A DNA stretch of 64,000 nucleotides from Sphingopyxis chilensis (GTDB lineage: Bacteria > Pseudomonadota > Alphaproteobacteria > Sphingomonadales > Sphingomonadaceae): positions 1,583,501 through 1,647,500 of the forward strand of contig NZ_CP142394.1 in NCBI RefSeq assembly GCF_035930445.1, in the 5' to 3' direction. Shown one piece after another: positions 31,671-33,958 of this stretch. Numbering within the stretch: position 1 is the first letter of the stretch; each line of letters starts with the position of its first letter. The notes beneath the pieces were generated by a model that saw nothing but the letters and a program-made list of their open reading frames with translations, was not told where the DNA came from and did not search any database. Both the position numbers and the translations under genes were made by a program.

Positions 31671-33958
31671 CCGATTTTCTTCTCGAACTGCGCAGCGAGG
31701 AAATCCCGGCGCGGATGCAGGCCGGCGCGCGCACCGAGCTCGACAAGTTGTTCCGCGCTCAGATGGCTGCCGCGGGCATCGAGACCGGCGACCTCACCAT
31801 CTGGTCGACCCCGCGCCGCCTCGCACTGATCGCCAAGGGCCTTCCCGTAGCGACCGCCGCGGTCAGCGAAGAACTGAAAGGCCCGCGCAGCAGCGCGCCG
31901 CCGCAGGCACTCGAAGGCTTCCTGCGCAAGACCGGGCTGACGCAGGACCAGCTCGAAGACCGCGACGGCGTCTATTTCGCCGTGATCGACAAGCCCGGCC
32001 GCGCGACCGCCGAGGTGCTCGCCGAGGCGATCCCCGCGATCGTCCGCGCTTTCGCCTGGCCCAAGTCGATGCGCTGGGGCAAGGACAGCGCGAGCAGCGA
32101 AAGCCTGCGCTGGGTGCGTCCGCTGTCGGGCATCGTCGCGATCTTCGGCGAGGAGCTCGTTGCGTGTGAAGTTAGCGGGATTTCCGCCGGTTTCGCGACA
32201 CGCGGCCACCGTTTCCATTGCCCGGGCGAGATTACGATCGGTTCAGCGTCGGACTATGCCGAAAAGCTGCGCGCCTGCCACGTCATCGTCGACCATGAGG
32301 AGCGCCAGTCGATCATCCGCGACGGCGCCGCGAAGGCCGCTGACGACGCCGGGCTGGCGCTCGTCGAGGACGAGGGACTGGTGATCGAGAATGCCGGCCT
32401 CACCGAATGGCCGGTGCCGCTGCTCGGCCGCTTCGACGAAGCATTTCTGGAGGTGCCGCCCGAGGTCATTCAGCTCACTGCGCGCGTGAACCAGAAATAT
32501 TTCGTCGTGAACGATGCGAGCGGCAAGCTGGCGAACGGCTTCGTCTGCACCGCGAATATCGATGCGAGGGACGGCGGCGCGGAGATCGTCGCGGGCAACC
32601 GCAAGGTGCTCGCGGCGCGATTGTCCGACGCGCGCTTCTTCTGGGAACAGGATCGCAAGACCAAGCTGGAAGCTCACGCCAAGAAGCTGGATCGCATCAC
32701 CTTCCACGAAAAGCTCGGCACCGTCGCCGACAAGGTCGAGCGCGTCGCGAAGCTCGCCGAATGGCTGGCAAGCGAGGGCATTGTCCCCAACTGCGACCCC
32801 GCGCTCGCGCGGCAGGCGGCCGAGCTCGCGAAGGCCGACCTCGTCACCGAAATGGTCGGTGAGTTCCCCGAACTACAGGGCCTGATGGGCGGCTATTACG
32901 CCCGCGCCGAAGGTCTGCCCGATGCCGTCGCCGACGCGATCCGCGACCATTACAAGCCGGTCGGGCAGGGCGATGATGTACCCACCGCGCCGGTTACGGT
33001 GGCTGTGGCGCTGGCGGACAAGCTGGATACGCTGACATCCTTCTTTCTCATTCGGGAACGACCCACGGGCTCCAAGGATCCGTTTGCTCTACGACGTGCA
33101 GGGATCGCCATTTCGGCAATCGTCTTGGTCAACGGGTTAAGGCTGCGTTTGGTCAATGTTGTTATGAAGTGTATGTTCGGCACACTGGAGCAGATGTATA
33201 AGTCGGAAGATCGAGAGAAGCTCGACAGCATAACTGGCGTTTTTCACCACCTCGCCGATCCTAAAGACGCTGCTGCTTTGATTGAGGCCGCGTTTCCGAA
33301 AAGAGAGGCGCCTTCCGATCCAGACGCGCCTGTTCCAGTAATTCAGCGAGATCGCGAAAATGCTGCGACATTGGTGGAGATTATCGCGTTCCTATTTGAC
33401 CGCCTTAAGGTCCAGCAGCGCGAAGCGGGCGTCCGGCACGATCTGATCGACTCGGTGTTCGCGCTCGGCGGCGAGGATGATCTTGTTCGTCTGCTTGCGC
33501 GCGTGAAGGCGTTGCAGGCGTTTATGTCCACCAACGACGGCACCAACCTGCTTGCGGGCTACAAGCGCGCGGCGAATATTCTGAAACAGGCGGGCGAGAC
33601 GTCCCCCTCCCGCTTGCGGGAGGGGCTAGGGGAGGGCATGTCTGATCCCGCTTCCGCTGAAACAGGCCCTCCCCCGACCCCTCCCGCAAGCGGGAGGGGG
33701 GAATTGGATCCCGCCGAAGCTGCTCTCCTTGCCGCCCTCGATGCCGCCGAACCTGCGGCTTCCGCCGCGGTCGCCCAAGAGCACTTCACTGACGCGATGG
33801 CCGCGCTCGCCAGCCTCCGCGCCCCGATCGACGCCTTCTTCGACGGCGTGATGGTCAACCACCCCGACGAAACGGTCCGCGCCTATCGCCTCGGCCTGCT
33901 CGCGCGCTTTACCGGCGCGGTGCATGGCGTCGCCGATTTCTCGAAGATCGAGGGCTGA
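31667..33958 (+). CDS. glyS: Glycyl-tRNA synthetase beta subunit, with in-frame repeat insertion
   Basis: Beta subunit required for tRNA binding, 763 residues from a GTG that overlaps the glyQ stop (TDFLLELRSEEIPARMQ). Family landmarks include GFLRKTGL, FPELQGLMGGYYA and KPTGSKDPFALRRAG-like RPTGSKDPFALRRAG. Two oddities stand out. Roughly 33040-33410 uses AT-richer codons than the rest of the gene and encodes a longer-than-usual connector. At 33603-33700 a palindromic repeat is inserted in frame and adds about 34 Ser/Pro/Gly-rich residues in a variable loop. The reading frame is intact throughout. Confidence 0.96.
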   Translation: MTDFLLELRSEEIPARMQAGARTELDKLFRAQMAAAGIETGDLTIWSTPRRLALIAKGLPVATAAVSEELKGPRSSAPPQALEGFLRKTGLTQDQLEDRDGVYFAVIDKPGRATAEVLAEAIPAIVRAFAWPKSMRWGKDSASSESLRWVRPLSGIVAIFGEELVACEVSGISAGFATRGHRFHCPGEITIGSASDYAEKLRACHVIVDHEERQSIIRDGAAKAADDAGLALVEDEGLVIENAGLTEWPVPLLGRFDEAFLEVPPEVIQLTARVNQKYFVVNDASGKLANGFVCTANIDARDGGAEIVAGNRKVLAARLSDARFFWEQDRKTKLEAHAKKLDRITFHEKLGTVADKVERVAKLAEWLASEGIVPNCDPALARQAAELAKADLVTEMVGEFPELQGLMGGYYARAEGLPDAVADAIRDHYKPVGQGDDVPTAPVTVAVALADKLDTLTSFFLIRERPTGSKDPFALRRAGIAISAIVLVNGLRLRLVNVVMKCMFGTLEQMYKSEDREKLDSITGVFHHLADPKDAAALIEAAFPKREAPSDPDAPVPVIQRDRENAATLVEIIAFLFDRLKVQQREAGVRHDLIDSVFALGGEDDLVRLLARVKALQAFMSTNDGTNLLAGYKRAANILKQAGETSPSRLREGLGEGMSDPASAETGPPPTPPASGRGELDPAEAALLAALDAAEPAASAAVAQEHFTDAMAALASLRAPIDAFFDGVMVNHPDETVRAYRLGLLARFTGAVHGVADFSKIEG
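33603..33700. repeat. Palindromic repeat inserted in frame in glyS
   Basis: Two near-identical inverted arms of 34 bp (33603-33636 and 33667-33700), each itself a palindrome around CCCGCTTGCGGG, flank a 30-bp centre. The unit is translated in frame within glyS as a Ser/Arg/Gly/Pro-rich segment. The same core forms the hairpin between rplY and pth. Confidence 0.85.

Follow-up and report, generated by a model that had tools for sequence, protein, structure and literature searches.

The glyS gene of Sphingopyxis chilensis very probably contains, as translated sequence, a copy of a non-autonomous Sphingopyxis element, a REPIN-like doublet of REP units, that landed in a loop of the encoded enzyme, and a few loops of housekeeping proteins appear to be recurring sites for repeats of this kind. 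In the window, that is, the whole 64,000-nucleotide stretch that was analysed, at contig positions 1583501-1647500, glyS is an unbroken forward-strand ORF of 766 aa (31658..33958, called from GTG) that encodes the beta subunit of glycyl-tRNA synthetase and matches PF02092, PF05746 and TIGR00211, the last of which (GlyRS beta) aligned over residues 6-764 in a profile search with an E-value of 7.4e-209. The repeat, designated R1, consists of two inverted hairpin units on the same strand (33603..33700) and corresponds approximately to residues 649-682, reading SPSRLREGLGEGMSDPASAETGPPPTPPASGRGE. Its left arm (33603..33637, forward strand) starts with the hairpin CCCTCCCGC-TT-GCGGGAGGG, whose core lies at 33605-33624, followed by an inner part ending GGGGAGGGC; the linker (33638..33665, forward strand; ATGTC...GAAACAG) has a middle that varies among copies; and the right arm (33666..33700, forward strand) runs from an inner part starting GCCCTCCCC into the hairpin CCCTCCCGC-AA-GCGGGAGGG, with its core at 33679-33698. 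Each arm therefore contains its own hairpin with a two-base loop, together with an inner part that pairs with the mirror image of the opposite arm, and because these inner parts are unlike (CTA on the left, TCG from the right end), R1 has a direction. An inverted-repeat search delimited arms of 39 nt each at 33603-33641 and 33662-33700, 90% complementary and separated by 20 nt, and the RNA fold of the unit has a predicted energy of -84.4 kcal/mol (z -7.3), with none of 200 shuffled sequences being equally stable. The first-pass annotation had described a palindrome inside glyS that leaves the frame intact; the two-armed structure within the uninterrupted ORF bears this out, and the open frame and its conservation suggest that R1 is translated within GlyS.

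The repeat occupies a loop in the C-terminal helical region that we refer to as site C (33587..33720, forward strand), which in relatives is either short or filled with varied palindromic inserts. An AlphaFold2 model based on 28 GlyS rows, of moderate quality (mean pLDDT 70.7, pTM 0.54), has pLDDT values below 50 at residues 647-671, between helices at 626-646 and 685-706, and the solved relative 7yse aligns over the site C stretch with gaps at the repeat. The insertion is not a clean addition, as most residues of the short loop are gone. Although about 34 added residues had initially been attributed to the repeat, the net gain is about 26, because R1 replaces most of a short loop: counted between two fixed motifs flanking the site, the loop measures 44 residues here versus 18 in most short alleles. 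The proposal that the same core serves as a hairpin between rplY and pth stood in part. A match to the 20-base core with two mismatches, CCCTTCCGCAAGCGGAAGGG, is located at 25646-25665 between ORFs 25044-25613 and 25680-26321, which we take to be pth and rplY, but it is a lone degenerate hairpin and not a full R1 unit. Elsewhere in the window, a further inverted repeat at 58622-58696 has 28-nt arms that are 89% complementary, and its ends resemble a CGTC REP dimer.

R1 is dispersed in the genome and across the genus. A 102-base R1 query searched against both strands of the genome gave 59 matching rows, including 8 places where the copy is full length (99-107 bp), the remaining matches being half units or single hairpins. 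The core CTCCCGCNNGCGGGAG occurs at 35 locations in the genome (a single contig of 3.95 Mb), where the reversed control gave none, and a longer R1 pattern was found in 72 of 80 genus genomes, with its reversed control at zero in all 80. Three of the eight full-length copies lie in frame in genes (glyS, carA and an E2 acyltransferase gene) and five are intergenic, in gaps between ORFs chosen by codon bias with an overlap of 0. All eight copies have 3 or 4 of the 6 reading frames open, and glyS, carA and E2 each read R1 in another frame, so that three readings of the same repeat are in use. Survival of R1 in glyS might be explained by at least half of the six frames being open and by the capacity of a loop between two helices to tolerate extra residues. 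Units matched by the pattern in this genome are followed by CTA, TTA, TCG, TCA or CCG and then GGG, and neither an unpaired GTAG tag nor an unpaired CGTC tag was seen beside the hairpins of these matches, their outer edges being judged by eye. R1 units also occur in clusters: at locus L052 they fall within approximately 1.8 kb, at 2018-2059, 2399-2505 and 3690-3791, around several ORFs that include carA and others presumably resembling dnaG, a DUF559 protein and a YqeY-like protein, and similar clusters are present in G003, G005 and G007.

REPINs pair two oppositely oriented REP units across a variable spacer and are mobilised by RAYT transposases. A search for the RAYT domain (Y1_Tnp, PF01797) gave 0 matches in this genome and was positive in 6 of 14 control genomes. 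Within the genus, PF01797 is present in 15 of 80 genomes; among the five genomes richest in R1 matches, G063, G071 and G073 have no copy and G007 and G051 have one each. RAYT-driven mobility was therefore rejected as a demonstrated cause, as was a candidate RAYT in the cluster at G000:C1:535.5-537.3 kb (G000 denoting the genome studied here), where the ORFs include carA. These results do not show R1 to be selfish, as the first-pass annotation described it, or still mobile. R1 may be a relic population or the user of another enzyme, and its entry into glyS probably reflects past mobilisation.

To place the S. chilensis allele among those of its relatives, we compared site C across the genus. 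Of the 80 genomes, 79 gave a glyS match and 78 yielded a gene for comparison; the set excludes G075, which had no match, and G048, whose matches were spread over more than one contig. States assigned by eye were a short loop in 32 genes, R2, a CGTC-type palindrome, in 25, R3 in 12, R1 in 7 and R4 and R5 in one each, so that palindromic inserts other than R1 occupy the site in 39 of the 78. The frame is open through site C in 76 of the 78 genes, whichever insert is present; the two exceptions are G065, truncated where its contig ends, and G019, which loses the frame within the insert close to the end of a contig. At least 32 changes of state were counted on a tree of the remaining glyS gene, which has strong support on 27 of 75 inner branches and on which recombination would inflate the count. 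Sister genomes are often unlike, as exemplified by R1 in this genome and a short loop in G005, and short alleles include those of the long-branch members G011, G058, G074 and G079. Some inserts are decaying (G002, G035 and G046). By eye, comparison of short and filled alleles of glyS and carA revealed no target duplication, the loss of loop residues blurring the site of entry. R2 resembles R1 in being dispersed, its R2a hairpin pattern occurring in 64 of the 80 genomes and its R2b pattern in 36, with controls at 0, and it is for the R1, R2a and R2b patterns that dispersal was established.

Beyond the genus, we read 47 glyS loci, of which 3 again proved to be genus members and 20 had been chosen partly for long frames. 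All five loci from other families of the order (5/5) lack inserts at site C and at a second position, site A (32783..32830, forward strand; approximately residues 376-391), which is short in this genome. Empty sites were thus found where the first-pass annotation had proposed looking for them, and the segment is not conserved across the order. That it is ordinary ancestral glyS sequence has next to no probability, and we rejected this reading on the short alleles and the other-family loci together. Many relatives have repeat-like peptides at site A: approximately 28 of the 78 genus genes do so, as judged by eye from peptides only, including R1 in G012, and in the wider family a fair number of members have other such peptides there, two of which are R1-like (L217 and L221). 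A third stretch, site B (33125-33390 in the window, approximately GlyS residues 490-576), is hypervariable with well conserved flanks and has a low GC content of 0.51 versus 0.66. Its alleles, of 15-106 residues, form 51 clusters by BLASTP linkage among the 78 genus genes, some are common to distant members (G000 with G079), and at least 59 changes were counted on the core tree. Site B looks like a case of diversifying exchange in an essential enzyme.

The other two R1-bearing genes present a comparable picture. In carA the copy lies in frame between the CPSase small-chain and glutamine amidotransferase (GATase) domains, and in the E2 gene of a 2-oxoacid dehydrogenase it lies in frame between the lipoyl and E3-binding domains. 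Thirty carA loci comprised R1 in forward orientation (11), R1 in reverse orientation (7), an SLDTNG type (5), an SPEGEG type (1; G055, a partial gene) and short loops (6); these were the best-scoring 30 of 73 matching genomes, obtained with a query that included the insert, which over-represents filled alleles. Across the 73 genomes, 23 have a single full-length carA match. We counted 12 changes of state on a carA tree with strong support on 7 of 27 inner branches. A simple inversion behind the two orientations was rejected, the frames being one base apart at the left edge, as judged by eye. Peptides from 30 E2 loci, drawn from 78 matching genomes with the same bias toward filled alleles, showed R1 in 11, two other kinds of insert in 3 and a plain Ala-Pro linker in 16. 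Unusually long open frames were also encountered, of 1100 aa for glyS in G155 and 651 aa for carA in G006, which are perhaps fusions or upstream frames.

If there were no hotspot, every present form at site C would have diverged from one ancient insertion. R2 and R3 have similar right outer ends (GCGAC and CATGAC) and similar flanks, so these two could be related, but by eye the R1 arms resemble dispersed R1 copies rather than any of R2 to R5, the carA loop holds R1 in both orientations together with two further kinds of insert, and inserts are missing at sites A and C in the loci outside the family. We consider a single ancient origin very improbable. Instead, palindromic repeats seem to settle repeatedly in certain enzyme loops, and a few loops in housekeeping proteins could act as recurring sites of landing or of retention for unrelated palindromic families.

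Within each group of like inserts, the arms are far more constant than their surroundings. Between species, arms at site C differ by 0.5-8%, linkers by 14-30% and flanking four-fold sites by 21-38%. For the seven R1 copies in glyS, pairwise differences were 0.017 in the arms, 0.211 in the linker and 0.32 and 0.28 at four-fold sites upstream and downstream, respectively; with G017 removed, these became 0.005, 0.143, 0.31 and 0.21. The corresponding values were 0.041, 0.193, 0.38 and 0.27 for R2b (10 genes), 0.062, 0.299, 0.35 and 0.31 for R2a (12), 0.079, 0.244, 0.37 and 0.29 for R3a (5) and 0.018, 0.304, 0.32 and 0.26 for R3b (4). The division into R2a and R2b and into R3a and R3b was made partly on arm sequence, which lowers the within-group arm differences, and R1 is free of such a split. 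The comparison set aside G046 and G035 (R2) and G063 and G069 (R3), while G065, G019 and the short allele G062 lay outside the parsing of insert structure. Counts of variable columns in arms versus linker at glyS gave Fisher p values between 1.9e-3 and 1.7e-8 across the six sets, two of them overlapping. Constancy extends to carA, where the arms of 9 of the 11 forward R1 copies differ by 2.1% versus 32% and 22% for same-residue codons on either side.

Selection on the peptide was rejected as the reason for this constancy, since the R1 arms of glyS are constant at synonymous positions too: in six of the seven copies, codons for the same residue differ in 5 of 300 comparisons within the arms versus 27-28% elsewhere in the gene, and therefore the peptide is not the conserved thing. 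Transfer from species to species as the sole cause was likewise rejected, the arms differing far less than the linkers between them; recent transfer of whole cassettes is insufficient because the linker between the arms drifts. These comparisons of sequence suggest that homogenisation or selection at the nucleic-acid level acts on the arms, and exchange between species alone cannot explain them. Under the preferred reading of R1 as a landed and translated element, the arms would be kept alike either because dispersed copies convert them or because the hairpin is under selection.

Homogenisation of the arms through gene conversion, with each genome's own dispersed copies of the family as partners, is a realistic candidate, with a probability somewhat below even. 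The seven genomes with R1 in glyS hold 16 to 49 half-unit matches each, dispersed R2a outnumbers R2b in 12 of 12 R2a hosts, the share of R2b is higher in R2b hosts (Mann-Whitney p 0.027, relatedness ignored) and the insert of G046 combines an R2a-type arm with an R2b-type arm. However, dispersed R2b is in the majority in just 2 of the 9 R2b hosts that have any dispersed copy, and the asymmetry of the arms (CTA left, TCG right) has been retained among the glyS R1 copies. Moreover, the exact R2b hairpin occurs once only, in glyS itself, in both G033 (one contig) and G004 (120 contigs), so that an exact donor is missing from these two assemblies. This last observation fits better with the somewhat less probable alternative that the hairpins have a role as RNA or DNA structures, for example by slowing interdomain translation or by binding nucleoid proteins, and that selection keeps the arms. 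In its favour, change in the arms is lower than in the linker by a factor of approximately 3 to 29 in the six sets, synonymous positions in the R1 arms are nearly constant and pairing is high: the left hairpins of R2 are 98% paired, with double changes in 3 of 8 pairs, the right hairpins are 96% paired, with 1 of 8, and long-range pairing from arm to arm stands at 93%, with double changes in 4 of 24 pairs. Against a hairpin function, 32 of the 78 species manage without an insert at site C, some inserts are decaying, and the intergenic R1 copies of this genome appear by eye to be alike too, which could make constancy a property of the repeat and not of the place. A broader version, in which four docking loops (two in GlyS, one in CarA and one in E2) are refilled by unrelated repeats and selection acting on the nucleic acid preserves the translated hairpins, for instance as programmed slow points of translation between domains, strikes us as unlikely.

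The distribution of states may also owe something to exchange between species, and we give an even chance to the idea that a few original insertions were spread by recombination of glyS segments, which is compatible with the landing of a translated element favoured here. By eye, one linker type is common to 5 to 6 of the 7 glyS R1 copies, and the sharing of site C states between nearest neighbours, evaluated for 70 genes with 8 of the 78 left out, peaks beside site C (0.52 versus 0.29 when shuffled, z 4.1). On the other hand, other segments of the gene also give z values of 3.5 (326-375) and 3.1 (443-587), with no more than 1.2 for the last segment, transfer cannot create different families, and a spread of intact segments does not account for arms that are more alike than the linkers between them.

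Palindromes within genes are already known in kind, and what is new here is that loops are common to several repeat families and that the arms are frozen. Within the limited literature and terms searched, we found no earlier mention of repeats being sited in glyS loops. The comparison with Rickettsia palindromic elements (RPEs) drawn in the first-pass annotation proved apt, R1 being a dispersed palindrome that lies in frame in conserved genes and has empty alleles in relatives. RPEs are palindromes of approximately 100-150 bp, dispersed between genes and in frame within conserved genes, where they fall in exposed parts of the protein (PMC3767692, PMC2229807). Correspondingly, the eight full-length R1 copies span 99-107 bp, with a stable stem-loop fold for the glyS copy (z -7.3), and occur both between genes (5) and in frame (3). 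The two nevertheless belong to different bacterial orders and are likened by features, not by sequence, and in Sphingopyxis one loop is filled by several palindromic families across the genus. R1 also resembles REPINs in having two inverted hairpins around a variable spacer, but differs in that its hairpins are untagged and the genome has no RAYT match. Intragenic REPs were listed in 2013 as REP dimers in coding sequence, including tRNA synthetase genes of S. alaskensis and E. litoralis, with linkers or loops proposed as tolerant places, and that report describes one case of different REPs at nearly the same site, in recB of two Xanthomonas (PMC3733652). The CGTC-1 type described in the same source (a CGTC tag and an 8-bp stem beginning AT with a 4-base loop; PMC3733652) is matched by R2b at site C, whereas R1 has neither the GTAG nor the CGTC tag in this genome. 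RU-1 and RU-2 of enterobacteria are small non-autonomous repeats with open frames that have become fused into genes (PMC2229807); R1 shares these properties and differs in that no target duplication was seen.

For RPE-4, RPE-6 and RPE-7, the Rickettsia japonica study weighed a hotspot against a common origin and leaned towards the latter without excluding hotspots (PMC3767692). The question of a hotspot versus one old, diverged insertion, unsettled in Rickettsia, becomes testable in Sphingopyxis, which is free-living and has dozens of sequenced species; its many empty alleles and several families at the same loops favour separate origins at a single place. The contrast between frozen arms and drifting linkers offers, in addition, a way to study what holds REP sequences alike. 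The palindromes of glyS, in their setting, are thus a richer comparative case than those described in earlier reports on REPs and RPEs.
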